From Adineta ricciae (lineage: Eukaryota > Rotifera > Eurotatoria > Adinetida > Adinetidae), in contig CAJNOJ010000028.1 in assembly GCA_905250025.1 (NCBI GenBank), forward strand, positions 248,001 through 312,000: 64,000 bases of DNA. The letters are read 5' to 3'. The notes under the pieces are model-generated. The model saw only the letters and a list, made by a program, of their open reading frames with translations. It ran no database searches and had not been told where the DNA came from. Both the position numbers and the translations under genes were made by a program. Shown piece by piece: positions 1-60,928 of this stretch (position 1 is the first letter of the stretch; every line of letters begins with the position of its first letter).

Positions 1-3000
1 TTCAACTCGGAAGAGTTTAAACGTTCTTTACTCCAGTCGTGTATTGACATTAATTTGAAAGATATCTTCATTGTTTCACTTCGAAATGGACATACTTTGA
101 ATTCATCGAGAAATTTATTGAATACGTAATAGAATTGTCGATGACGACTGAGAACTTGTTCATCGACTTGAAAACCAACGGAGTAAAATCGTTCGAGATC
201 TGTATCACGTTTTTCAGTTTTTGTATCAGTCTGTACAAATAAATGACATTCCTCTTCGCAATCGGTTGAGAAATGGGCTAAGCGAGATTTCATGTAGCCA
301 AGCCAATGCTCCAATTCGTTTATTGTTTGACCGGATAGTGTCAATTGAATTATAGATTGGATTGTTTTATGAGGAAATTGATTGGGAAGACGAAGAATAT
401 CTTCATAATTAGCTGTTTTTTCCAGTATTTCATATGCTTGCTGAAAACCTTGAATGATCAGATCACGAGTCGAAGTAGTCGTAGAACGTGCACTGTTGTT
501 AAATGGTGGAGTTGGGCATAAGATACGCATTGACCCACGACTAACTTCTGATGTTTCGTCGAGATAACGAAGTTTCATCGGTAAATGAATCGAGTCGTGT
601 GGCCAATTGAAATGTGCATAAAACGAAAAGAATAGTTTGATTAAGTCAAATAACTGTTCAATGGAAAAACAGATTTGATTTTTGGGCAGATGTTGATGAC
701 AGATGTATGCACATAAGATTGCCCATGAGTAACCACCCAGATAACCATAGACCTGACCGTAGAGACCGGTATTTTGAGCCCAAGTGCGAATGAATGTTAA
801 TAGATACTGAAAGATGGGTGGATAACGAACATATACCACAAGACGTTCGATATCGTGAACCTGAATCCAAGAAGTGGATAGGATGAGCTAGTTTCTGGTG
901 AATTTCACTTACTCCATGTATTGGTTCGTGAAAATTTGATAGTAAATTTGTTTCTTTCAGTATGGAAGCTTCTTTGATTTCTATGAATATTTCTACTTTC
1001 GTTTGATCAGTGAATAAAATCGAGAGAATCGGATAGACGGCTTGAATTCTTCGACTATAGATGATTTCATTATTGAAAAAGTGAGATATTTGCTTTTCGA
1101 GTAGATCTGAGACATGATTTGTTAGTGCAGATGAATCGTATCTCAATCGAAGAAATGTTTGGTCAAGAACTGTTGGATTATCGAGAGATCCGTTCTCAGC
1201 GACAACAAAGACAATGTCGAGATCGTCGCCATGCAAACCCTAGAAAAGCGGATGGGTAAAGCACTTGTTTTGACAAGAAAGAACTTACCAAACGAAAACT
1301 TCCGTACGAAAAACAGAGACATCTGTAACAATGTAACGTATTCTCATTTAGAATTTCCTCGAAACAAAGCGACAATCGGTTAGATTTCTTGCATTTACGC
1401 TCATAAGATTGTTCATTCTTGTAAAGATTCATTTTTGTAAAGAATTCTTTCATACTACTATCGACTCCATACAGTTGATTACGACTTATAGGTTCAAGCA
1501 CTGGACCTAATGGTAATTGATGAGTTACACTGAATGGCGATGTATCATTTACGTCTGTTCGCTGTAAAACAGAAATATACTGTACAGGGAATCGAATTGA
1601 ATTGGAGAAATCTAACAACATGAATTAAAATTCCACTTGTGGTTATTCTTTCGACTTACTTAATGTTGATTTAGCTTGGTTTAATCTTTTACTGGTATCA
1701 AACTGTGCAATGATGATATGTGGATTAAATTGCTGCTCATTCAATAATAAACATTGTGGAAAGAGTTGCTGAATCTGTGCATGTAATGCTTTCAAGGATT
1801 TTGCTGATTGTAAATTCATTTTTAACATTATCGTACGATCGTCTGCTGATGAGTCGACTTCATCAACGATTATTTCAAACGATTGATATTGACCAAGCAA
1901 TAATCTCAACGGAAGAAGAATACTTTCTTCGTCATTTTCATTATTGACTAACTCAAAGAATGGCCAGAAGAGTTTGACATGTAACGGCGATTGTTTCATC
2001 ATTGGATCATACTGTTCACGAAAAGTTTCAATCATTGAGTCCATCTTCATCGGAAGTGCAATGGCGAGCATAGATCGATGACTAACTGGTCGTGTTCGAA
2101 AGTGAATTTTTAATTTTAATCCGAAATGATCCGATTGATTGAGACGTTTGTTACTTTGCGAATCAACGGAAATCGTTTCGAGACCGATCATATTCATATG
2201 TTCAATGGAATAGGAAAGATTATGTAATGTATGAAGTAGATATCGATCGAGACGATGACTTTCTGACGATTTGGATGTTATTTTCGCACAAGAATTACGC
2301 AATGGATCAAATGTATAACCCGGATTCTAAACAAAGAAGAAACAATTTCAATGGTGGTTGTTTTTTTCATCTAAACTTACTTCTTCAATGTCGTAAATGT
2401 CTCTCCATAGATCATGTATTTGATATTGATATTTCTGGAGGAGATACTGTTCTTGCCAATGATGATCACCAAAATTGAAATCTCCAATCAACATATAATT
2501 TTGTGTATCCATCGTTTGAAATAAATATTTTAACGCTTGGCATCGTTTATCTACAGCATTGTGCGAACAATCACTGTGTAAATGAAGATTAACCAGATCG
2601 ATTGTGACTTGCGAGTTTAGTCCAAATCGCGCGATAATGTATTCCTTGGTATATCTTCTTCTTGATGCATTTTCGAATAATTGAACGGGACAGACTGTGA
2701 ATGCTCGTGCTCGAAAATTTTTCGTCAGAATGATTTGTCCAAACGTTTGTTCATGTCTACGGTTGACAATACTTTCCATAATTATAATATAGTAATTGTT
2801 TTCTTGCACCCATAGTTCACGCATAAGCAGAGTGAGAAAATCCAAAGTAATTTCTTGTAAACATATAATATCCGGTAAGAATGATTTCAATGTTTTCAAA
2901 ATTTCAGGATATCGAAGGTATGTATAAATCGAGTCGGAATGATAATAATCGAAAAGAATATTCCATGTTATAATTTGACATCGCTCGGGAATGCACATAT

Positions 3001-3981
3001 TATTTGAAGATGGTTCCCTCGTATTATCTGACGCTAAATTCACATGTGGACATAAGTTCCATCGATGATTCGATTGATCGAACTCATACATTCCTTCCAC
3101 TAGATTCATTGGTTGCTCTCCAATATCTATAAAAGAAATTCAGTTTCCGACTTAATTGTACTCTCTAAATCACAGTATTCAATAGGTTAAAACAACTCGT
3201 TCCCGTCTTCGAAGTGCAAACTCCTTTCTCTTCGTTCAACGTACATACCAGTAGGCGTTTCAACATTAATTTTATTCCCAGTTAAAATATCCACCTTCTT
3301 CACGCGATCCCAAACGACCTCGCCATCGATTTTATAATAACGAATTCGATGCATAGGAATACCACACTGATCAATAAACATGTTTCATTTAAATTCGGAT
3401 AGAAATACAAGCGTGTACATTACTTTATCGTCATGGACTTTTTTGAAGTCATTAAATGCGATTTCTTGTATACCGGTGAAACGATCTTCATAGCCGATGG
3501 TAACTTTCGAATGATCAATGGTTGGATCGTATGTTAGGCGATTGAAAATCAAATCCGCTCCTCGAAACTTTTCCGCAGGTGTTGATGCATCTGTTCTCGA
3601 TGTTGTCAATGATGACGATGAACGAGATTTAGAGTCTTCATTTAAGATTTTAGAAAGATAATCTTGAACAGATTCAACAATCGAACAGAGAGAAGTATTA
3701 CGATCAGATTGTTGAACGAGTCCGTCGAAGTAATCTCGAATTTGAGTCCATTGAGCATTTGTCAACGAATCTTTATTTGTCATTTTTGATATTCGCAGAT
3801 CATGCAGCGCATCGATTGATAAAGACTCTGATGATGGATCGGTAAAACATGTGATATGGATACTATGATCAAGTTTTAAACAAATCTGATCAAAATCTCC
3901 AGCTGATCGAATTTGAAAGTTGTCATTGGACTGAAGCATCGAACGCAGGAAGGCGAAATCGTCTGTATTGCTTTTTGACAT
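1..3981 (-). CDS. MJ1316-EEP-2H-poly(A) polymerase fusion protein, 3' end outside window
   Basis: Predicted RNA end-processing or repair protein. Exons joined in frame: 3424-3981, 3249-3366, 2381-3126, 1660-2326, 1289-1611, 913-1239, then 860 leftwards; introns of 57, 122, 54, 48, 49 and 52 bp all have GT/AG ends and matching phases. Domains in order: an N-terminal extension (about 120 residues, possibly RWD-like, plus a Ser-rich linker); MJ1316 domain (GYEDRFTG, then across an intron IPMHRIRYYK and VVWDR); EEP domain (TWNIL, DIICLQE, GDFNF, and HRLDRYL at its end); 2H phosphodiesterase-like domain (HVKLFWPF and PHIIIAQF); nucleotidyltransferase with GSFRLGLHGDDLDIVFV and the PAP central signature GYLGGYSWA plus ILCPTPPFN. 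MJ1316 is thought to recognise 2',3'-cyclic RNA ends. The putative third NTase carboxylate appears to be Glu (KVEIFIEI). The left-most splice (near 95) and the C-terminus are not resolved. Domain calls are by motif; the one-gene model is inference from phase continuity. Confidence 0.8.
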
Positions 3982-4804
3982 GACGTATATGGATAGTTTT
4001 TACCAGGTAATGTGGTAATATTTGATATCCATACGAATGACTAAAATATTCGTTTTTCATTGGAAAAGAAATGAATTGTGATATGCTATATTGATAAGAA
4101 AAATAGTGCGTTTTAGAGACAAGATTTTAATCTCAGAAGGAAAGGACCAATACCAATCTCTGTTAAAACTTTTTAAAAACGGTGGTCCAAATGAGTATTG
4201 CAAGGAGAAATGGAACCTCTTGTAATTGAAAAAGCATAATAATTGTTTTTATTTGTTATTACAATAAAATATGTGCTGACAACGTATTCTTTCTAATATT
4301 GAAATATTTTTACCCACGATAGACGTCGCTCGAAGTTGGACGCTTCTTGCATAATCTCGGCACACGACATTTCGTGAGAAATGAAAAGCTTTTAATGATT
4401 TTTCTCAATAGGATACAGCGTTCTTTGTGCACCTGAGTACACGAAGTTTAAGTATATCATACTGATCCCAAGTAAATCCTGTACTCTATCTCTCCTTATA
4501 TCCTTGAGCTACTTATGAAAATCTTTGTTTTTGATAGCATGATACGCGGTTCACACGAATGACCTTATTTCAGAACATCGATATTTCATATTAAAACACA
4601 TTTATTTTTTGCCAAGCTACAAATAAATATACAATTAACATCTATTTCAATAGACAAAAATAAAATTTTTTGCCTCTCGTATGAAAAATATGTAAATAAC
4701 GTCTATGTTGCTCTCTATGAATATATATTTATAAGCGACTGATGTATTGCTATGAAAGACGCTATTTACAGCTACATTTAACAAAAAAAGGTAAATGATT
4801 GATT
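3982..4804. other. Intergenic between fusion gene start and carbonic anhydrase stop
   Basis: It holds the upstream region of the minus-strand fusion gene and the 3' untranslated region of the minus-strand carbonic anhydrase gene. It is AT-rich and I see no coding exon or repeat. Confidence 0.5.
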
Positions 4805-6669
4805 TTAACTAAATGAACGATAGACCACACGGCCATTGAGAGGCATCACCGGACGAAAATTTTGCATTATATACCCACTCGTTGTGTTGTCACCTCTGCA
4901 CGAAGATTTTAATTGACGTAATTGTTCAAACTGGAATTATATAAATACATGGTGCACATTCGAATGTGTGTTGAGACTTACTTGACGCCGCGAAACGCCC
5001 ATTTTTTCACGAAACACGATCCAACGAACACTCTCCGAACACATCGGTGTTGTCAATGAACCGTTGTAGGTAAAGTAACTTTGCATATCGTCTGAAATGG
5101 AAATTTTCTTCATACAATTCTTTCTGTAAATACAGAGGAATGATTTTACTTGGAAGAAAACTACTCAGAGACACTTTTTCATAATCCAAATCAATTTTTT
5201 CACCATTGTAAGAAATATTTGAAAACAAATCGACTAGTTTACCAAATTCTTGGTTATCAGACGACACAACCTATACACAATATTATTAACATTGCATATC
5301 TACTCATCCTGTATCTGTTTTTACTTTCAATAATATACCAAACACCATCAAACCATCGAATTGCTCCGAAAGTGCAGCATCTTGCGGCGTACGATATTTA
5401 CTAGTATTCCATGTGACAATATGCAACTAAAAAATTTATTGTGATCATGAATTGCGAAAAGTTCATGTTACAAACACGTTTATACTCACTTCACCGGGTA
5501 AACGAATACCATCGATAACGTGTTCAGCACCTTCGAGATCATTGGAGCCCCAATGCGCATGAAATTGCAGAAATTGGTATTGATCAGACACCGGACCACC
5601 AGTAATCACTATTGAAAGAAAACCATATCGGCATCAAATCTCTATCTGACATAAAACGACAGTAAAACTCAGATCTATACTCACCACTGTGTCCACTACC
5701 AGTCACTTGAAATGAACTACCAGTATTTTCCAGTGTTTGACAACAATTTTCACCAGCAGTGAATACAAATGGTCGTTGTGTGAGCGTTGGATCGAATTCA
5801 CACTGGTCCGTATAAATGCGAATCGGAGATTGGAATTTTTTACACGCTATTTCAGGAAATAATCGACTCCACATATGCGGACCTTTGAAAACCGATAGAC
5901 TTAGATGAAAATCAGCTTTCATTTTGATTCTTCGTCGTGGTTTAATTACGCATGTGATATTAACTGACAAAGAGGTTATTCCGGAAAAGAACATGGTAAT
6001 CAGAAAACTCCATTTTAATGAGTTCTCTTATAAACTGACTTCTCGATAAAATGATGACCTTAGCATTTTTATCAACTTCGCAAATTTGCTATCAATTAAT
6101 TGTTTGACGGGAATGATTATTTCAGAACAAAATTAGTCGAATAATTGGCTAGAAAAAGTAGAGATCGTTTGATTTGTTTTCCTTGTTTAATTTAGTTTTT
6201 CTCTTAATAACTTCATCTACGTTAACCTTGGTTTTAGTAGAAGAAAACTTAATTGAAAAATGATGAAGGAAGTTCCTTGCATCTTACCGCGGGATACAGA
6301 ATAATCCCAACGTACGGGTTGCGTTGTTTTCACCTTTTCTTCCTTATCAGACTTCTTTCCTTCTTCACCATATTGATACGTTATTTTCGGAGGACGGACA
6401 GGTGTGGAAAGATTATTCTCTTTCTTTAGATACGTATCTGCTGTCTGAACAGATCGACGAATTTGGATTTCGATATCGCCTATTTCGATCAAAATCGATG
6501 TCAAAAGAAGTGACTGAGTCTGATCCTACAAAATATTGTAAACATCAATGCAAATTCGGCGAAAGCTTCCTTTATTCACCGTCGACGCTTGACCCAAATT
6601 GATGGCAACTCGATCGGTTCCACTTCCCACCACAACTGATTGCACATCTTCGTTCATCGTCGATGTCAT
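4805..6669 (-). CDS. Alpha carbonic anhydrase
   Basis: Catalyses reversible CO2 hydration with a zinc ion. Exons read: start ATG at 6667-6669; then an exon ending WDYSVSR; a roughly 405-bp intron; [13 protein letters not shown] and [37 protein letters not shown]; and [16 protein letters not shown], ending with the family's usual tail [11 protein letters not shown]. Two zinc histidines are in FHAHWG, the third in the GE/LHIVTWN junction, and the Thr pair in LTTP. The H64-like histidine is in VTGSGHS. All junctions are in phase. The N-terminus has no hydrophobic signal peptide, so the product is probably cytosolic. An AG acceptor (CTGTAG) lies six bases upstream of the start, so an upstream leader exon or trans-spliced leader is possible. 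Family assignment is certain; the isoform is not. Confidence 0.92.
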
Positions 6670-28925: not shown

Positions 28926-31012
28926 TCATGTTGATTGTCCGGGCTCGACCACTACGAAAGACAGTTCACGAGGCAACACCGAGGCGTTCTGAATCAGTTG
29001 ATCGATCTTGATATTGTTAATATGTGTCGGTGGTAATATTTCTCGATAAACTTCGGCTGTTTTTTCGTAATATGACAATGCTTTTTGCCGATCATCTTTC
29101 AAGGCGAATATAATACCAATATTTCCCATAACTTTCGCGAGCTCTGAGCTCTTCGTTGGATAATGTTTCTGTAAAATATCTAACGCTGCATTGTAGTGTT
29201 GCAGAGCCGCTTCATATTCTTCGAGTTGTCGATATATACTTGCGATATTACAGTGGGTTTTGCTCAGATCGAGATGGTCATGAGACAAGTATTTCTCCAA
29301 AATGACTAATATCATTTGAAAGCATTCCAATGCTTTTTCATAATCGTGTTCTTCTTTATAGATAATGCCAAGATTATTCTTACATTCAGCGATGTTGAAA
29401 TAGTTTTCATCAATGGATTGTTTCCAGATCGAAATGGCGTTTTTATAAGATTCAATAGCTAGCTTCGACTCCTGTTTAGCATGATGCAGATGACCGATGC
29501 TATTGTAAATCTGTGCGAAGAACATATCATCGGGCTCCAGCGTTTGAATGGATATTTGAAGTGCTTTTGATAGCAGTTCATAACTAGCTTCATAATTTTT
29601 CTTTATGAATGCTATATTGCCAAGGTTCAAACAACAATACCCGATGCGTTCATCGTCGTCAGAGAATTCGGTAATCAAACGTCGATAGTATTTCTCTGCT
29701 TCATCCGATTTATTCAATTCTTGCAAGATATAACCGAGTGAAAGAAGATTGATATCGCCATCTTCATTCTTGTAATTATTGTAAACAGATTTAAGGTACT
29801 TATTTGTTTTATCCGATAATGTCATTTCGATAATCCAGGTATTGTTTTCATCTTGACGAATGCTGTTCAGTTGAAATATAGATCCCAGCATAAATAACAC
29901 TTCATTCGAGTCTTGATGAGCGTCATCTTGTTTGTCAATAACAGCGAATGGTTTAGATTTATTCAGGTGAGGATTGGCAGTGATTTCAAATAGTATCGAA
30001 TGAATGCTGTTCGTTGTTACCGAAACCTTTTCGAAGGAAAGTGCCGATTGTCGATCCATATTTGCAACGAGGAAATTGTTTATCGATATAAACTGTCCGA
30101 CCGAGTTTTTCAAAAGTTCCAATTGAGTATCACTTATTTGTTGATGTCTATAAACTTTGATTGAATATACATGTTGACTTTGCGTCAATTCTTGGTGAAT
30201 ATCTTGTAGAAAAAATCGAAAGAGAAACATCAAATCGAGATTTTCCCTTCGCAAAGCTTTGTTGAATATCTGCGAGATGAATGTGTCCTGGATTAACCAC
30301 GAAATCGCATTCTCTGATGAATAACTTTCGTCAAATTTACGAAGGAGATCTAATTCAACTTTGTTGCCCTTGTATTGTTGTCGACACAGCGATAACAAAT
30401 CAGCAGCGTCATTTGATGCTGGATCCGTTTCAAGCAAAACGTCGATTAGAATTTGTGAGTATAGAAATCTTTTATTTCCATTGCTTGGTTGATTAATATG
30501 AAAAATATCAAACAAAAGTTCGTCCTTGCTAAGCATGTATCTTCTCTGATCAACTTTTATTTGATTTGTTAGTTCATTGTAATCAACACAGATGGATTTA
30601 ATCTAAAAAACAACATATCATTAACGGCATTCGATTTTTACGGATATCGATCTACCTTGTTAAATTGGTTTATCCAAGATTGATCGATATTTTTGCTAGG
30701 AGAATAGATATATATGGAAAATAGTTGTGGTAGATCATGGATGTTTGAAATGAACATTTGTCCAATTTGATCGTTGATAACCAAGACGATGTTTTCATCT
30801 TGAGGCATTTGTTTGATATATCGTTCACATTCAGTTTCGTTGATGAATACTTTTAAATAATTTATCGTTGCGCGAAGTCGTCGTTGAATCGAATTGCTCT
30901 TTTGAGATTTCTTGTCGACATTATCGAGCCAGATAAGACTAAACACTTCGAGATTCTCGTTCTCAATGAACGTTGCACGTAGCGATTTGTTCGCACTATA
31001 GCACGACCCCAT
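28926..31012 (-). CDS. ADP-ribosyltransferase-like/TPR protein
   Basis: Two exons (30656-31012 and 28926-30602) with a 53-bp intron give 677 residues. The first roughly 140 residues (VFSLIWLDNV ... DLPQLFSIYIYS) are a conserved N-terminal region of this bdelloid family. Next is a region matching an arginine-specific ART fold: VYRHQ (R of the R-S-E triad), a block ending DRQSALSF, FEITANP, PFAVI and NEVLFMLGSIF. The usual Ser-Thr-Ser segment is FLVANMD here, and the usual E-x-E is S-N-E. The C-terminal half is about six kinesin-light-chain-like TPRs (for example NNLGIIYKEEHDYEKALECF, NIASIYRQLEEYEAALQHY). So it may have lost transferase activity and act as a scaffold. Fold call is confident, function is not. 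Confidence 0.8.
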
Positions 31013-33007: not shown

Positions 33008-34885
33008 TTAGACTCGGGCAACTTCTTGAAAGTAAACACCCATGACTTTCATTCCGTTCATATAGTTACTAACATCGAATTTCTCATTTTGTGAATGAGC
33101 ACCATCATCACTAGCGCCAATGGGTAATAAAAGAACATTCTTTCCCGTTTGCTCTTGGAATGTCACTAGAAAGTAAGTTTTCGTTCAGATTGGATATTTC
33201 TAAGTGGTGTGAACTTACAAGTGATTGGAATGGAACCACCTTCACGTGTGAGATCAGGTTCAATACCGTGAACAACAACTGTTGCTCGACGTGCTGCAAC
33301 ATATTGAGGATGATTTGGATCGGCGAGCCAATAATCACCACCGTGTTCCAATTTAACGGATACTTTATTTGGAGAGTTTCGTTTCTCCATCACATTTTTT
33401 ACATGCTTTTCAACCAGTTTTTCTATTGTGGCAATTTTCATGTTAGGAACAATGCGAATAGAAAATTTTCCAATAACATGACGAGGTATGACTGTTTTAC
33501 AGCCGACGCCATCGAATGCACCTAGAAAAACGAAGAATTCGTATTGATCTGATGCCCTAATCGATCTACCTTGAATTCCATGTAAAGTCAATGATGGGTA
33601 TCGCCATCGGTGCATCAAAATTTGTTCTTTATCTTGTTGAATTGTTTTATCAACACCAGCTTCCGCAGAATAAGCTTTCTATGAATTCGATGAACGCGAT
33701 ATTCAAGTCAGTTTCATTCAGATATTCAACTTACGACATCAAAAGTAATACGTTTGTAAATTTCTGCTTCTTCTGGTAGTAGTTGTGCAACTTCATCATA
33801 GATACCATCAATTAAAATGCGGCCTTGATCATCGACTAATGTACTCATTACGGCAATTAGATCAGTCATTGCTTCGTGGCTAAATAAGAGATGAATCATA
33901 GATTCAATGCTATTGCAAGAAGAAAAAAACTCAAATATAGATATATGTGCACGGCAGTCTCAGTTATAATATAATTTCCTTCTGGATACAATGTTGATTA
34001 GTTACTTTTCAGTAAAATTGTTGTAATCATGACATACGCTTGACAACATCATTCTCACTACTTACATTGTACCACCAAAACAACCGGAGTGTAAATCTTT
34101 CGTTGACGATTCGACATCAATGAAGAAATAGCAAATACCCCTACATAAAACAGCAGAAATCCAGAAAATCAAATTAATGATTTAAATTTACCGAAGACCA
34201 TATTGTAAACATGGTTTTTCTTTTCCTAACCAATAACTATCGGAGATGACAACATAATCAACACCCGATAAAAAGGTATTTTTCAGAGACTTAAGCAAGT
34301 CTTCCAGACCTTCACTACCATATTCTTCCATGCTTTCGAGAACAAATTTAACATTGACCGGGAATGGTTCATTCAGTTTTTGATATGCTTCAATCACATT
34401 GAGCCAACTGATGACTGGACCTTTATCATCGGTAGAACCACGACCATACAATTTGCCATTTTTCTCCGTCAAGACAAATGGTTCGGTGTCCCAACCATCG
34501 GAAACTTGTGCCGGTTGGACATCCAAATGTCCATAGATGACAACTGTCTTCTTCAATTTATCGTTTCCGTAAGTACCCAGAATGACATCCGGTAATTTGA
34601 GTTTCGTTCCATCTGCAAGCTTTTGTTCTCCAACATCAGCTAATTCAACTGCAATACCCAATGATTCCATGAAACTTTTCGTCCATTGAACCATACGAAA
34701 AACTTCGGGCCGATGATCAGGCCAGGCGGATACTGATGGTATCGCAACTGCATCACTCAATCGTTGGATATAGTCCTTTTGATGATCATCAAGATATCTA
34801 ATGAATTGAAACAATGTTGACTCTACACTTGTAAGGATAAGATGCCTTACTTAAATAAACGTTTATTGAAATCTTCGCTGGACAT
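33008..34885 (-). CDS. CNDP2: Cytosolic non-specific dipeptidase (M20 family)
   Basis: Di-zinc or di-manganese dipeptidase that cleaves Cys-Gly and other dipeptides in glutathione turnover. Starts [18 protein letters not shown] across a first intron. Metal and catalytic motifs are in order: YGHLDVQPA (His and Asp), [10 protein letters not shown] (bridging Asp), MEEYGSEG (catalytic Glu pair), [13 protein letters not shown] in the exon near 34050-34075, [45 protein letters not shown], and [10 protein letters not shown] near 33080 with the last metal His. The C-terminus is [12 protein letters not shown]. Length and order match the animal family along its whole length. Several introns; all seen are GT/AG. 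Confidence 0.93.
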
Positions 34886-40700: not shown

Positions 40701-43700
40701 TCGGTTGATCGAATCATGGTCGAACTGGGAACTAATCGATCAATCGATATTTCCAATACCGTCAATACATCAATCAGCAATTGGGCGTCTGATGGACGAG
40801 CTGAATTGTACAGAAAACCCTTTCTTTTGTGTTTTATCCTTTTATTTACTTGTTTGTTCCATCTTTTTTAGTACTCAACTGTACAAACAATTACTTGATG
40901 ATAGTAAAAACCCATTTGAAGCTGAATTAGGTAAATGAACATTAAACAATCGAATTGCCTCTTTGTAATATCGAAAACAACATATTTTGTCTTTTAGCAT
41001 TGAAACAATTGCTTGTTTCTTTGTGCAAATCATGTTTACAAGGCAGTCAATCAGTCGAAACGATCATTCGAATCCTCACTGAACTTCAAGTATAGTTTCT
41101 TCACATTTCTTGATGGGCGATTTTGACGGGATGATTATCTTTAGGAAATTGTCAGTACTCCATCGATGATCGGTGATCATCTCGCGGATATTCTGGCCAC
41201 ACTTGGTTCGTTTTACTTCTAGAAATCATTGCGGAAAATTTCTATTTGATAAATATTTAGACGTCGAGTTATTTCCGAATGATGAAACAACATCAAAAGA
41301 AACGTACAAGCAAAGATTTTTCCAACTGATCAACAATTCAGAGGTATGAAAGGACAAGTCGAACTGACTATCCTCGATGACTTTTCTCGAATCGGTTTCA
41401 CTTTACACCCGTTGATGTTCTGTTTTCTTTAGCATATTATCTCCACCACATTATTAATGGAACGTCTGGAAATCGAAACGTTAGAATATCTGGATTTAAT
41501 TGTTAGCCGCGAACAATTCAATCAGAAATACGTTCGCATTAAAACTCGGCTTTAGTAAATGACTACGACAACGAAGATTTCACGCGTTATGTTTCTACTC
41601 ATTTTTAGTTATAAGCAACAGAAATTCAATTTATTCCGTGAAGAAAGTGAAGGCTTTGCTAAGGCAATTACGGAATTAAATCAAAATTTTACCGTAACAA
41701 AATTAACAGCCGAACTATTATATGATCGTTTAATGGCTTTAATTGGATATTTTGATATCGATCCGAATCGCATGCTTGACTTAGTTATTGAATCATTTGA
41801 GTGCCATGTGGAACATTCGAAAATCTATGTCAGTCTGTTATATTTACTTCATTTCGATAAAATTACACTGTGCCAATTGATTGGCTTCAAGTTTCAGCAA
41901 TATCAAGTAGATAAATCATTGTATAGACATAAAAGGTCTTTATTCTTTTCGTTTAGTTACACGATGAGACACCTGATTCACTTTATCTATTAGCAGCACA
42001 ACTTGTTGCAAATGATTTGATCGAACTTGACGATTTGTTACCACATGTAAACAACAAAAGACATTTTCTCTCGCATATCTTCATTCATATCTTCTCATTT
42101 TAGTTCTATCCACTCCTGACCGATTTTGCTGATAGTTACACTAAAGAAGTTGAAACTGCTCGCACGTCCAAGAGAGGATTAGCATCATTAATGAACGATG
42201 CAAACAACAGATCCAAAGATTCCAGTACATTGGTAAATCTGTGCTTTCTTTTATTCAAAACAATCCACTGATGATTGCGTTTTAGAAAACAAACAATCAA
42301 CTGGTACACTTCATTCAAGCATTGGTATCTATCGGTGATTTGGAGCACACGTTGTATTTATTTGATAATTTGCCACGATGGTCATGCACATCTTATCGGG
42401 AAATTAATGGGCTTTTAACAAAAATTATTGCCTATATCATCGATCCATTTTATAAAAAGTAAAGAAGGCCATGTGAATTTCGTTTCAAAGCAATGTTCGT
42501 CTTTTTCTTTGAAGTAATTCGGAACTCCATGCGTGTTTTCTCCAATATGAGTTGAAACATCCATTGAATCAAGCGATTTGTCCACGAGATTTGCAATCGA
42601 TCACAACATGGAATGAATTTCGAACAAAGATCTGTCCTCTCCTGTTACACCTCGGTGCTTATTGTCAAGATCGTCTTCTTTTTGTGAAATTAACACGTTT
42701 GTGCACAAATGTGATCAAGAAAGCTGTTGATAGCTCCGATGAACTCAAAGAAGATGTTCTCCTCCTCATTGACGAAGTTCTCTTGCCCAGTCTTTCACTG
42801 TTAGATGTCAATGGCTGTTTAGCCATTGAATTATGGTTGTTGATCAAATTATTTCCGTATGATATTCGTTATGGACTTTACGAACGATGGCACGAAGAAA
42901 CTTACCGAAAAACACCACAGCTGATTCATATGAAACACGAAGTTGCGGACAAAAGTCGAGCTATTCTCAAGTAGGATGCTCGAATCGAATCCTGATCATG
43001 AAAAAAACCTTTTTTTCTTTCTCTTAGACGTATTACGAAAGACAATGTGAAAACATACAGTCGTCAAATTGCAAAAATGACACATAACAATCCCATCATC
43101 ATTCTCGCCGTCGTAAGTTGTTTTCCTAATCTACTTTACCTAGTTTCACCTTTAAATCTGAATTTTAGATCATCGATCAAATCCAACGATTTGATAATTT
43201 TATCACTGTAATCAATGACGCGCTGAAATATCTTTCACCCTTAGCATTCGATGTTGTTTGCTACACGATTTTACATGCACTAACAACACCCGTGTCAGCA
43301 GCAGCGGCAGCAGCTTGTATTGACGGTAAAATGAGTCGTGAAAATGCGGCTCCCGCCCAATGGTTTCAAAACATATGTGTTCTCTCGGCAAATGTTTTTA
43401 AAAAATATCCCATTGACTTCACATCGATACTTTATTACGTGTACGATCAATTGCGACTAGAGAAGACATGTGATTTATACTTATTACGCGAGATTATAAC
43501 GAAAATGAGCGGAATTGAAGTATCGTCGACACTTACACGTGAACAATTGGAAGCAGCTTCCGGTGGGGAATTACTACGAAGTGAAGCGGGACAGTTTACT
43601 GCAGCGAGAAATGTTAAGAAATCGTCGATACGTTTGAAAGAAGCTCTTTTGGATAATCATTTGTATTTGCCATTATCGATTATTATCGCTCAACAACGTA

Positions 43701-46700
43701 ATTGCATTGTGTTCAAGTTCGGTGCACAAAGAATTGAACATTTGAAGTTGATCGGTAGCCTTTATGATCAAGTTCGTTGTTGAAGAATGAAAGGCGACTG
43801 TTTTATTGGGTTCTTTACATTGATTTCTAGTGTCAAGATACAATGGTTCAATTTTTTACATTTTTGTCAAATGTTTTAACAACCGAAAACTTTCATCATC
43901 AATTTCCATCCATCGATGACCTTGTTCTGGGATTTCATTTACAAGTCGATGCAGCTTTTCAAATTTCAAGACCTTTGTTCAATGTTAACATTCAAGTAAA
44001 ATCAGACTTGATTTGATTTGCGCTTAGAAGTACCGTGAACTCTTTTTTCAGGCCAAATTCGATGAACTACGAGCAGTAGCGACGAAATCACCAGATGAAA
44101 ACGCCTTGGTAATTAATCCTGATCAAATTAAGTACGGAAAATTTCATTTCATTTATATTTAGGCACAAATCTACATCGATGCAGTTACGGAGGTGATGTC
44201 ACCAGTTCTTGCTTTTGTCAAAACTCTTCATGCACAACGAACATGGGATGAAATGACGTATGTGAAAGTTTACTATTGCATACTCACTTGTTTAGTTCGG
44301 AATTTTCAGACCACAGTTTTATTTGACATTTTGGTCGTTATCTCTATCGGATTTACAAGTTCCTGAACCAACATATATACGATGTATCCAAGCCCTTGAA
44401 CTGGAAAAGACAAAGATCGATGAAAGAGAATTGGTTTGTTTCGAAATTGAAGCGAAATGTGATTGTGATATTTACCGTTATACGTTCTCTTTCTTTATTG
44501 TAGACTACGGGAAAGAAACGAAAGGAGAAGGAGAAGAATCAAATCATCATTAATAAACTCCATGAAGAATTAGCTGTCCAAAAGAAACATAAAGAACGAG
44601 TACGCGCTCGACTGGAAAAAGAACGTGATAATTGGTTTAGGATCAGTACGTAATCTTTGCTTCACAAGTCCATCATCTCCTCAATCACCTTGATCATTTA
44701 GGCAGCAAAACAAAAGTCGAAACTGTTACTGAATTTCTGCAATTGTGTATTTTTCCTCGATGTTTATTGAGTGAAATCGATGCAGTTTACTGTGCATATT
44801 TCATTCGTACGATCCACGATTTAGCTACGCCTAATTTCAGCACAATTATTTGTTACGATCGACTATTTTCGGATATCTCCTATTCACTGGCATCATGCTC
44901 AGAAAATGAAGCCATTCGCTATGGCAGATTTCTTCAATCATTATTAGACACTGTAATGAGTTGGCATGGCAATCGACAAGTATTCGAGCAGGTAATTATC
45001 GATTATTTAGACCAAAATTTCTACGATCTACTTCAATACTGTTCATTCTTTGCTTAGGATTGCGCGAAACATCCAGGTTTTCTTACTGTTTTTCGTAATG
45101 CTGGTAGCGCAACGGCGAAAACAGGCAGCGCAGTGCAAGTACCTGAACAGCTTGACTACGATAACTATCGTCATGTATGTCACAAGTGGCATTACAAATT
45201 GACGAAAAGCTTTATTTCTTGTCTGGAATCCAACGATTATGTTCAAATACGCAATGCACTACAAGTTCTCACTGTTCTCCTGCCTATATATCCAAAAATA
45301 GCGGCATTCTACACGGCAGTGGAACGACGCATTAAAACGATATGTGCAGCAGAGAAAGATCGCCGTCATGACTTGTTTGCTCTAGCCAAATCTTACAGTG
45401 GTCGTTTAGCGCGTAAACACGGTGATATGATTGAAGCCAGTCAGTTTCATACAGTTCCAGAACGATCAGCATCATCGTCGACGAGTAGTAGTATTAATAA
45501 TAGTAATCCTGGTACGAAAATGAATTCTCTCCTTCCACCGTCCGACGGTGATGCAGCTAATGTTAATGATCATCCTATTTTATCAGATTCTCAATCATCC
45601 CAATCATCAACAACTCGTTCGACCAAGAAAGATTTAGCTAACACTAGCAGTACAACGAGTAAATATCCACACATTCGGCGAACTGTTTCTCATTTACAAA
45701 CTTAATTTGTCTTTCTCCAGCGCGACCAGCAAGTGATCGAGCAGGAAATACAGCTGGATCGAGTAACATATCGACAACAGCACCGAAATCATCATCGCCA
45801 ACACCGTCATCACAAACAGCAACACCAATTCCGGCTACTTCAACGACAAATCGATCAGCAGTTGTAACGAGTACTGGTATGATGCAATATTGCCATCGGT
45901 GCTCCATCCAATATGGTTCTAATTCTCTGTATGTCTACGTGTAGAACCATCTACTAGCCGAATTAAATCGGATTCGGTGGTTAACAGCAGCGGTAGTGCT
46001 ACGAATACAGCATCGAGCACATCATCGAAAACCAATCGAACAGCACATGGTCCATCACTGCCTCCTTCGACGCCAATTTCAAAATCTCAAGTATCATCGA
46101 CAACACAAATCAAAAGCGAGCTCAATGAATCATCAACTGGCGGCGGACGAATGATCAAATTGTCGAGTAATGGAAATGATCGTCGCGAATCACCTCCTAC
46201 GTCAACAACACGCATAAGTCCACCGACCAGTAAAAAAGAGTCATCATCGAATGACAAGTAAATACCAATTAAAACTAAAACAATCATCTTGATATTATAC
46301 GTCTCTATTTTATAGACGCAATCCTTCATCATCTGCGAATGAACAACAGTTGTCATCAACTAAAACGTCTGCTTCACCAAGCTCACGCACTACTTCGTCG
46401 CGCACTGTGACAACATCCTCGCGCAATAATGTTTCATCTGCCAGTGGCAATGACGATTTAATTATAAAGTAAGATAAATATTTTTTTTCTATTATGAACT
46501 CATGTTCTATCCCGTATTTTTTTCCTGTAGATCGGAACAAACGGCGACGAATGGAGCGAATAGTTCGTCATCGAAGAATGCACGTGCAGAATCAATTCAT
46601 GACAATGGTGGAATTGATCATTTTTTCTCATTTACTTTTACTTACTAGCGTTTTTATTTTTTTTCTCTTTTAGCACCAGTAGGAAAACGATCACGTGGAA

Positions 46701-57966: not shown

Positions 57967-59772
57967 TTATGAGTTAACTGGTTTGAGTATGTCAGGTAAA
58001 CCACCGATTGAATCCAACGGCAATGTACTTGCTACAGGTGAATCAAGAACGCCCAATTCTTGTTGTGTAAACCATTTCGGTAAGATCATGACTCGAAATG
58101 GAATTAATAGTAGAACTAATACAGGAAATCCAATTGCTGCAATAGTTTGTGAAATGATAAACAGCAAAGCGAAACCGACCAACATGGTTGTAGTATAGAG
58201 AAAAATCTTTTTACGAGAAAGTTGAATTAATGGATCGTCTATTTCAATATGGTTTGGATCTCGAATAAGATGTAATATCTGATGTGTAATGGCGCTGACC
58301 TCAACTGAACCCCAACCGATGCCGATAAAAACGCCAGCTAGAACAGCACGAGATATCATTGAGTAACAAGTTAGAAACGGCCCAATCATCGTGAGAAGAC
58401 AAAGCAGACTTTGACATGTGTTTGTTATACGTTGTTCTTTAATTTTGACTAAGACATACTGTTGTACAGTTCGACGAGATTTATGAATATTGACAATCGC
58501 TGTCGGCACTTGATTTTCAACGGGCCCATCCACTTTCCAGCGACCAAGTGCATCCGTATGCATAGCACATTGTGGCACCAACGCATTGGGGTATGGTAAA
58601 CCGAAGAAACCAGCGATAATTGTTGTCCATCCCAAGAGGAAGAAATCCCAATGAAATCCAGCTGGTTTTCTTAGCGGGTAATGTTTCGCCTGTGCTGTTA
58701 AACTCGAAACATTATGATCGAAATAAAATAGAGCAGTAACAAGCAAAGCAAATGGTATAGCGATGAAAACATAACCAACATCTATTTCTCCTGGATTAAC
58801 GAACCATGAACGGGTGGTCTTTGTTGGTTGATATGCAGGTGTAACTGCTAATCGTTCAATATTTGTCGAACGTAAATGACCAGGAATAAATGCAAAACCC
58901 GACCAAAACACCACGCACAGTATCATTGCATAATCAACGAAAAAATCACGAACTTCACGATTAAAATAACCTGATTGACCGATATGTGTTAATATCCAAT
59001 AGGAGAAGAAGAAACCGAAAGCAACTAGTATTGACATAAATCCTTTTGTTGGTGATTCATCGAAATCATCGATGATAAATTCAATTCCTTTTTGTATATA
59101 AACAATGCCGACATAGAATCCAAATATTTCAGCTGTAAAATTCGTCATATAACGGACGTAGGTGACCAAATTGAAGATTGCTATCAACCAATGGAAAATA
59201 GCTGCCCATATAGCAACCCAACACATGAATGGCAAATAAGGTACATGAGTATTTCGACTGATTATATCATAAGTTGTATAGTTAAACAAGCTGATCAAAC
59301 CAGTAAATCCAACGATTGATATCGGTTGCACAGCTAAGAGACCAAAAACTATACCTAAAATAGAAGATGTTGTACTAATGATGTAACTACAATCTATACC
59401 AAACAGACCTCCCAGAGCGGATGCTAATAATGCTTCATTAACACCATAGTACTGATCACTACGTAGATATAGATCAAGAGCATAAGCGAGAGCTGGAATT
59501 GTGTTGAGAAAGAAAATACGAATCGTTGCCGCGAATATTCGATACGATAACGCTAGTTTCCAATCGGACGTATAGTAAGGTAAACGTATTTTAACGTCAC
59601 GAATCATTCCAGCAAAAGGATAGCATATCGAGGTATAATGTGACGAGTAGCCAGTTTTCGGGATAACTTGATTTTCATCTTCTATTGTTTGATTTTCTAT
59701 GGAAATATCAACAATATCATCGCTTGATGATATCACTGAGAGATGTGTACTTTTGTCGTTCATATCGTTCAT
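57967..59772 (-). CDS. Bor1-like borate/anion transporter (SLC4-type fold)
   Basis: Multipass membrane transporter with 11 or more hydrophobic segments. Begins MNDMNDKSTHL, with a roughly 50-residue polar N-terminus, then YPFAGMIRDVKIRLPYYTSDW, which is how fungal Bor1 proteins start. Other family marks are FFLNTIPALAYALDL, YGVNEALLASALGG, LFNYTTYDI, IFGFYVGIVYIQKGIEF, AIPFALLVTALFYFDHNVSS, KPAGFHWDFFLLG, ITHQILHLIRD, FIISQTIAAIGFPVLVLLLIP. There is no large cytoplasmic domain as in animal SLC4 proteins. One 45-nt intron (gtatag...ttttag, near 59341-59385) has no stop and is a multiple of three; removing it gives LGGLFGIVFGLLAVQP, the family form. The closer match to fungal than animal sequences is my recollection and suggests horizontal transfer. 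Confidence 0.85.
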   Translation of the reverse strand: MNDMNDKSTHLSVISSSDDIVDISIENQTIEDENQVIPKTGYSSHYTSICYPFAGMIRDVKIRLPYYTSDWKLALSYRIFAATIRIFFLNTIPALAYALDLYLRSDQYYGVNEALLASALGGLFGIDCSYIISTTSSILGIVFGLLAVQPISIVGFTGLISLFNYTTYDIISRNTHVPYLPFMCWVAIWAAIFHWLIAIFNLVTYVRYMTNFTAEIFGFYVGIVYIQKGIEFIIDDFDESPTKGFMSILVAFGFFFSYWILTHIGQSGYFNREVRDFFVDYAMILCVVFWSGFAFIPGHLRSTNIERLAVTPAYQPTKTTRSWFVNPGEIDVGYVFIAIPFALLVTALFYFDHNVSSLTAQAKHYPLRKPAGFHWDFFLLGWTTIIAGFFGLPYPNALVPQCAMHTDALGRWKVDGPVENQVPTAIVNIHKSRRTVQQYVLVKIKEQRITNTCQSLLCLLTMIGPFLTCYSMISRAVLAGVFIGIGWGSVEVSAITHQILHLIRDPNHIEIDDPLIQLSRKKIFLYTTTMLVGFALLFIISQTIAAIGFPVLVLLLIPFRVMILPKWFTQQELGVLDSPVASTLPLDSIGGLPDILKPVNS

Positions 59773-60928
59773 AATTTATCACGTCTATAAACGTAAAATC
59801 GTTTGTGATCACTACAGTTTTCTAAACAAAAAACGTACTCGATGAACAAGTCAAAATTTCTCATACAGTGCAGTGCATTCGTATCGAGTCTTTTTACGTT
59901 CTTTATCATTTAAATATTATTCATTTCTTCACACTCCTATGATATATGTGATTCTTTCAATACCCTAAGGATTCTCATCTCACTCGACAAGTGTCTATAA
60001 TCATCCATTATAATTATATACGATCACATCAATGATAAAATTTTCTTTACGAAGACAAAAAACATACAACTGCTTTCAAATGACAACAACATGGACACAA
60101 TTATAAACATTAGCTTGCTATTACATCTATTCAGTGAGCGAGTCTACTAAGTATACAAAACTGAAACGAATTGACTCGAAATAAATAGGCACGAAAATGT
60201 AAATACCATTGGCAGACATTTATTCAAAGATATGTGCCCTTTACTGGACGAATATTCCACGATAATAGCATTTCAATCTAAATTTAGCTGGTTTTATGCA
60301 CGGAGTAATCCGAGTAAGAACTTGTAAAAGTTCTTTTTCTGTTTTTCGACTATCAATCATTCTCTTGTCTTGATAAACATATTCAACTGTTTTGTTTAAT
60401 TAGAAAACCCTCGATTCTTCTATCAAATACGAATCATAATATTTGATTTCACATGCACATATTTTCATTTTCAATGTCAACAAAGATTTAATCAATCACT
60501 GTCCTTTAAACAAGGACGAGTATTTATTTAAAAAAATAGAAAGATTTTTCGAGATAATATTCAAGGATACGAGAAACTTTCATTTCATATTCTAATCGTG
60601 GTCATCATCTTTCAAATCGACGACAACATAGGCGACCAGTCAGGAATGCACTTAACTTCATCGACGGCGCACTCACAGTAATCAAATAAGCACTCAACCA
60701 TGACAGTACTCATGTTAATTTAAACCGCATCCCTTGTATTTCTACGTACGATCAATGAAGGAACGACAAATGTTGTTTTTTTTGTCTACATAACTATACA
60801 CAATTGTTTTTTATTATTATAAAGAACAAATATTTGATTCATTTTTTTTTCTAAAAAAGAATTATTATTTTATCTTCAGTCATTAAGTATAAGACAGTAG
60901 TAACAACACCAAAAAAAAAGAAAAAAAT
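59773..60928. other. Intergenic
   Basis: Upstream of the Bor1-like gene and 3' flank of OSGIN. AT-rich; no gene or repeat seen. Confidence 0.5.

Follow-up and report, generated by a model that had tools for sequence, protein, structure and literature searches.

A minus-strand gene at the left end of the window (the whole analysed stretch of 64,000 nucleotides from Adineta ricciae, C28:248001-312000) is predicted to encode a fused protein of 1201 residues that chains four known RNA-end domains. Seven exons and six GT-AG introns give one intact spliced frame in this gene model, in which an N-terminal domain is followed by MJ1316, an EEP nuclease/phosphatase, a 2H phosphoesterase and a canonical poly(A) polymerase (PAP). 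Paralogues in the same genome show the same fixed order and a low dN/dS. Recognition, phosphate removal and tailing appear to be joined in one protein. We put the chance that the gene encodes a single enzyme healing and tailing RNA 3' ends at about even.

Structure of the fused gene

The gene is made up of the following features (window positions, negative numbers lying to its left).

3981-3424, minus strand: exon 1 (aa 1-186), N-terminal domain (aa 1-135) and first half of MJ1316
3423-3367, minus strand: intron 1, splitting the MJ1316 domain
3366-3249, minus strand: exon 2 (aa 187-225), second half of MJ1316 (HRIR, WDR)
3304..3555, minus strand: MJ1316 domain PF04457 (Pfam E 4e-17), split by intron 1
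3248-3127, minus strand: intron 2, 122 bases, GTATGT...TAG
3126-2381, minus strand: exon 3 (aa 226-474), spacer and N-terminal part of EEP (WN, QE, NLHLHS, GDFN; PF03372, E 3e-7)
2326-1660, minus strand: exon 4 (aa 475-696), C-terminal EEP motifs (RxDR, SDH, by eye), then 2H domain PF13563 (E 1e-15)
1659-1612, minus strand: intron 4, 48 bases
1611-1289, minus strand: exon 5 (aa 697-804), conserved linker and start of the nucleotidyltransferase (YGSFRL)
1288-1240, minus strand: intron 5, 49 bases
1239-913, minus strand: exon 6 (aa 805-913), nucleotidyltransferase with DxD (GDDLDI) and candidate third carboxylate (KVEIF)
860 to -6, minus strand: exon 7, PAP central domain (about 411-812) and a part resembling the PAP C-terminal region

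From 5' to 3' the introns measure 57, 122, 54, 48, 49 and 52 bases. The initial annotation had proposed that exons joined by GT/AG introns place four RNA-end domains in one protein, and all the joins that it named were found on the minus strand, including the 122-bp intron connecting 3249-3366 to 2381-3126. Its gene span of 913..3981 proved too short: the exons in this span are confirmed, but the gene runs on past 913. Across the 52-base intron, exon 6 leads to a seventh exon, which holds most of the polymerase. The stop codon reaches C28:247994, 7 bases beyond the left window edge, and is followed 110 and 136 bases downstream by two AATAAA sequences beginning at -116 and -142. At the other end, the position of the start is limited by a stop codon that lies in frame 18 bases before the ATG. 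A first gene model of 1182 aa contained a 105-base intron 4. It was dropped in favour of the 48-base intron because the peptide removed by the longer one (FPVQ..LQR..ND) is conserved in the paralogues.

Other genes detected in the window by Pfam were the following.

34188-34850: M20 peptidase
43169-43783: THOC2
57967-59775: bicarbonate transporter

In addition, a long frame at 28926-30602 contains many TPR repeats, and its otherwise unassigned N-terminal half has the look of an ADP-ribosyltransferase by eye.

Three further loci share the architecture

A search of the genome (130 Mb, 1033 contigs) gave seven MJ1316 matches, four of which belong to the fused family (the window gene and loci on contigs C602, C16 and C200) and three to LENG9-like genes (C27, C138 and C50). 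The C602, C16 and C200 loci fit the same architecture and introns as the window gene, with models of 1246 residues for C16 and 1245 residues for C200. Exon 2 has 118 bases in all four copies, and the six GT-AG introns take equivalent places in the three paralogue models, which were fitted to the window protein and therefore lean towards it. In the named domains and in the linker, the window protein is 37-64% identical to the paralogues; the values are 40-45% for the N-terminal part and 32-44% for the C-terminal part.

The paralogues bear on the question whether two or more adjacent genes have been wrongly joined into one model, which we regard as extremely improbable. Intron 2, at 122 bases, does exceed the other introns. 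Against this, introns sit inside MJ1316, inside EEP (judged by motifs) and inside the nucleotidyltransferase motif, and the same intron places fit in the paralogues. The best-scoring equivalents of intron 2 have 186 bases in C16 and C200 and only 71 bases in C602, which leaves little room for a gene end between MJ1316 and EEP. The join between EEP and 2H is free of any splicing assumption, since the C-terminal EEP motifs and both 2H motifs lie in one uninterrupted exon (2326-1660).

C16 and C200, probably homologous copies, share 93.5% identity along about 9.9 kb. For neither the window gene nor its flanks did the genome yield a close second copy; for the gene, the next best locus has 55% identity among the longer matches. 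C602 contains a repeat of 1061 bases (95.5%), whose copies meet at an N, as well as repeats of 0.9 and 0.5 kb (92%).

C602, 24201-26319, 27168-28073 and 29537-30463: near-identical repeats (95.5%, 92%), lying within the fused gene and behind it

The second repeat copies begin at or close to single N bases (25258 and 29533). This looks like two haplotypes merged in the assembly, and the C602 gene model would therefore be a composite.

Domains and active sites

The main Pfam scan was run on the first model of 1182 aa with curated cut-offs. MJ1316 reached 63.1 bits (cut-off 26.3), EEP 30.8 bits (cut-off 24.5), 2H 58.2 bits (cut-off 27) and PAP_central, PF04928, 59 bits (cut-off 27.1; E 6e-16). 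The last E-value fell to 1.5e-16 once the C-terminal part had been corrected. The same four Pfam domains exceeded their cut-offs in the C16 paralogue, PF13563 with 88.3 bits. No family was found up to E 1 in a PHROGs scan of residues 1-696 of 1201 or in an NCBIfam scan of the whole protein. A structure of the EEP-2H part obtained with single-sequence AlphaFold2 was discarded (mean pLDDT 38).

Residue roles in the EEP, 2H and PAP active sites were taken from their families. The catalytic motifs of EEP proteins are WN, QE, NxH, GDxN and SDH, and in all four copies WN, QE, NLHLHS, GDFN, RxDR and SDH are kept. When the EEP profile was compared with solved structures up to E 1, the sole match was ANGEL2 (6rvz), at a non-significant E of 0.26 over 34 positions; the domain perhaps belongs to the CCR4/ANGEL group.

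2H phosphoesterases carry two Hx(S/T) motifs. In the window copy the corresponding motifs read HVK (H590) and HII (H677), so that the histidines are kept and Thr or Ser is absent, while C602, C16 and C200 have HxN and HMT. Membership in the 2H fold stands for the window copy, but its predicted catalysis is in doubt. The idea that 2H evolves unusually fast in this copy was not supported (Fisher P 0.72).

The altered 2H motifs could also mark the window gene as a decaying paralogue, with an intact frame and a weakened enzyme, the function then being left to the copies at C602 and C16/C200. Residues unique to one copy number 216 in the window protein, 113 in C602 and 125 in C16/C200, as such decay might produce. 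This excess could instead reflect an outgroup position, and it is spread over most parts of the protein rather than concentrated in 2H, as the same Fisher test indicates. With the 1201-residue open frame, the EEP motifs and the DxD of the polymerase all kept, decay appears distinctly unlikely.

For the polymerase, the best solved match was PAP gamma (4lt6, E 3e-19). Up to E 1 the profile matched nine solved sequences, all of them poly(A) polymerases and none an OAS. The initial annotation had predicted both MJ1316 and a nucleotidyltransferase. MJ1316 scores over its Pfam cut-off and the polymerase matches PAPs, but no Pfam nucleotidyltransferase model was matched up to E 5. The nucleotidyltransferase motif alone is weak (i-E 28 against 4lt6, 0.055 against 2q66), although one Pla1 stretch spans it. 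Canonical poly(A) polymerases use three catalytic carboxylates, the DxD and a third Asp. The DxD is kept in all four copies. The conserved Glu of KVEIF is aligned with the Asp of IDL in 4lt6 yet lies one column off in 2q66, and a Glu in place of the third catalytic Asp is therefore at most likely.

PDE12 and AKAP7 act on 2'-5' bonds. A protein combining EEP and 2H as these enzymes do, with a nucleotidyltransferase for another substrate, might turn over 2'-5' oligoadenylate or 2'-5' linkages, and PF13563, into which the 2H domain falls, is indeed named the 2'-5' RNA ligase superfamily. We consider this function very unlikely for the fused protein, given that the solved matches of the polymerase profile are PAPs without an OAS among them and that MJ1316, as described in the excerpted text of PMC6514570, points to RNA ends.

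The N-terminal 135 residues received no assignment from their sequence and are perhaps RWD-like, on a weak structural hint. Sequence profile comparison gave no support for RWD homology of this domain, and Foldseek returned 319 matches at E <= 10 and zero at E <= 0.001.

Age, synteny and selection

In C28 as well as in C16/C200, the fused gene is flanked by an EF-hand-like gene, with a Pfam match under the cut-off, and a carbonic-anhydrase gene in the same order and orientation. Because a common gene stands on each side, the C28 and C16/C200 loci are old duplicates (ohnologues). The shared flanks also imply that the fusion is older than the duplication and that the gene is a long resident of the genome rather than a recent arrival. 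In C28, the frames that separate the EF-hand-like gene from the fused gene found no match in the examined C16/C200 stretches. Among the frames downstream of the fused gene, before the EF-hand-like gene, are short ones with a cold-shock-domain look by eye (L008 3026-4295).

C16 and C200 differ with an overall dN/dS of 0.17 (Nei-Gojobori), and the ratio is well below 1 in every part: N-terminal 0.14, MJ1316 0.04, EEP 0.22, 2H 0.15, linker 0.26, NTase 0.11, PAP central 0.08 and C-terminal part 0.31. Each value per part is a point estimate that rests on 6-26 synonymous and 1-21 nonsynonymous differences. dS between C16 and C200 is 0.146; over the whole protein it rises, near saturation, to 1.17 between the window copy and C602 and to 1.69 between the window copy and C16. 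For Adineta ricciae, a GC content of 35.6%, a mean homologue Ks of 0.135 and introns mostly of 30-100 bases are given in the excerpted text of PMC5916493. Correspondingly, the window has a GC content of about 36% (32 bins, 0.336-0.425), the genome contains pairs about 94% identical plus old duplicates, and the introns of the fused gene are short. A glutamate-receptor frame matched glutamate receptor chains in the 60 matches listed of 384, which points to an animal without narrowing it to a species.

Origin and genomic context

The initial annotation had suggested that the gene may have been acquired horizontally, with similar mosaics in some fungi. Scans of viral contigs with four queries and of prokaryote contigs with one query confirmed no relatives. 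As each contig scan rests on two short peptide patterns, distant relatives may be missed. PF13563 has nine matches in the A. ricciae genome, five of them in the fused gene family at its four loci. ATP-type RNA ligase domains are present as well, PF09511 with nine matches (six over the cut-off) and PF09414 with six (all over the cut-off); beside the 2H family they make up a broad RNA-repair repertoire. Other polymerase-like loci lie on C210, C173 and C128 and are 28% identical in the PAP part.

In the excerpted text of PMC11258130, genes with PF13563 are reported as horizontally acquired in Adineta, their PF13563 domains grouping with non-animal lineages. Of about 15 genes under the RNA-ligase term, 50-70% respond to a fungal pathogen with strong induction; the term shows no enrichment in desiccation. 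The top matches of the induced RNA-ligase genes are bacterial or phage RNA ligases, which fits poorly with a four-domain protein, and the fused gene is not named among the induced ones in that text. The acquired genes that A. vaga expresses highly in response to radiation include EEP genes and two RNA ligases, as excerpted from PMC10809525.

Proposed function

The domains suggest a series of steps at broken RNA ends. MJ1316 would dock the protein on RNAs that have been broken by ribonucleases or chemical damage and end in a 2',3'-cyclic phosphate. The 2H domain may first open the cyclic phosphate; in the window copy it is perhaps impaired or serves binding only. The EEP domain would then strip the blocking phosphate to leave a 3'-OH, and the canonical-type poly(A) polymerase domain would extend the healed end with a tail, by which the RNA would be either stabilised and rescued or tagged for decay. 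A likely setting would be a bdelloid-like animal whose RNA is damaged by desiccation, radiation or the RNA-cutting toxins of parasites. From the domain set we infer that sensing, healing and tailing of broken RNA by the fused protein form a coherent scheme. MJ1316 is described as recognising 2',3'-cyclic RNA ends and as being fused in diverse ways with RNA-repair domains across the eukaryotes (PMC6514570, in the part available). Furthermore, the EEP protein ANGEL2 removes 3' phosphates that block polyadenylation of mitochondrial RNAs (PMC9525292, likewise in part) and would by analogy be a precedent for the division of labour between EEP and subsequent tailing.

The same domain set fits a surveillance enzyme equally well. 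In that case the tail on a broken RNA would recruit exonucleases, and EEP and 2H would remove phosphates or tails to make its end degradable, with no purpose of repair. CCR4-family EEP proteins do include deadenylases (excerpted text of PMC9525292), but MJ1316 fusions are described with RNA-repair domains (excerpted text of PMC6514570), and a pure surveillance role seems unlikely to us.

The reading of the fused protein as a healing and tailing enzyme can be carried further. It may be a self-contained RNA rescue machine of bdelloid-like animals, which heals the cyclic-phosphate end of ribonuclease-broken RNA and adds poly(A) instead of religating, and which was acquired before an ancient genome duplication and kept as part of an RNA-directed defence against parasites and stress. 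This extension is tentative, and we rate its chances as clearly below even. A healing and tailing enzyme as such would couple recognition of damaged ends in a single polypeptide to removal of the phosphate and to tailing. This would be a repair or tagging route distinct from ligation, in animals known for desiccation survival and acquired genes. Moreover, natural paralogues differing in their 2H motifs make the roles of MJ1316, 2H and EEP separable in a defined protein.

Comparison with known systems

MJ1316-based RNA-repair fusions in eukaryotes are an already known kind (Burroughs and Aravind 2016, via the excerpted text of PMC6514570), and the chaining of MJ1316 to RNA-end enzymes is common to them and the fused gene. 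The exact four-domain order in an animal was not recognised in a literature search by titles and abstracts, the scope of which excluded the main review (gkw722). Similar mosaic proteins probably occur in some fungi.

Within the genome, the closest comparison is provided by the LENG9-like genes.

L009 (C27:229500-239400), about 3886-5563: LENG9-like gene with RWD, MJ1316 and AKAP7-type 2H (Pfam)
L011 (C138), about 4324-6109: LENG9-like gene with RWD and MJ1316 (Pfam)
L014 (C50): LENG9-like gene, assigned from 94% identity to C138

By eye, adjacent LENG9-like frames appear to form one gene. In the C138 copy the HRI stretch of MJ1316 reads SRI. Like the fused gene, the LENG9-like genes have MJ1316 near 2H and an N-terminal domain in the equivalent place, and MJ1316 of the fused gene is 40% identical to that of C27 and 30% to that of C138. 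In contrast, the LENG9-like loci gave no EEP or PAP match in the examined stretches, and their 2H domain is of the AKAP7_NLS type (PF10469; 89.1 bits in the C27 frame), for which the fused protein has no match up to E 1. Homology between the RWD of the LENG9-like genes and the N-terminal domain of the fused protein is without support from profile comparison. A CCCH zinc finger had no Pfam match in the fused protein, nor in the C27 frame, which contains a CCCH-like stretch by eye.

Mitochondrial ANGEL2 and poly(A) polymerase are separate proteins, whereas the fused gene provides one chain; to our knowledge, ANGEL2 has neither an MJ1316 nor a 2H domain. Alike is the predicted principle, in which an EEP phosphatase readies 3' ends for polyadenylation (excerpted text of PMC9525292). 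With canonical poly(A) polymerases (PAP gamma 4lt6, yeast PAP) the fused protein shares the DxD, the central domain and the C-terminal region in profile alignment. It differs from them by a loop before the DxD that is two residues shorter than in 2q66, probably by a Glu where the third Asp is expected in canonical PAP, and by the addition of three other RNA-end domains.
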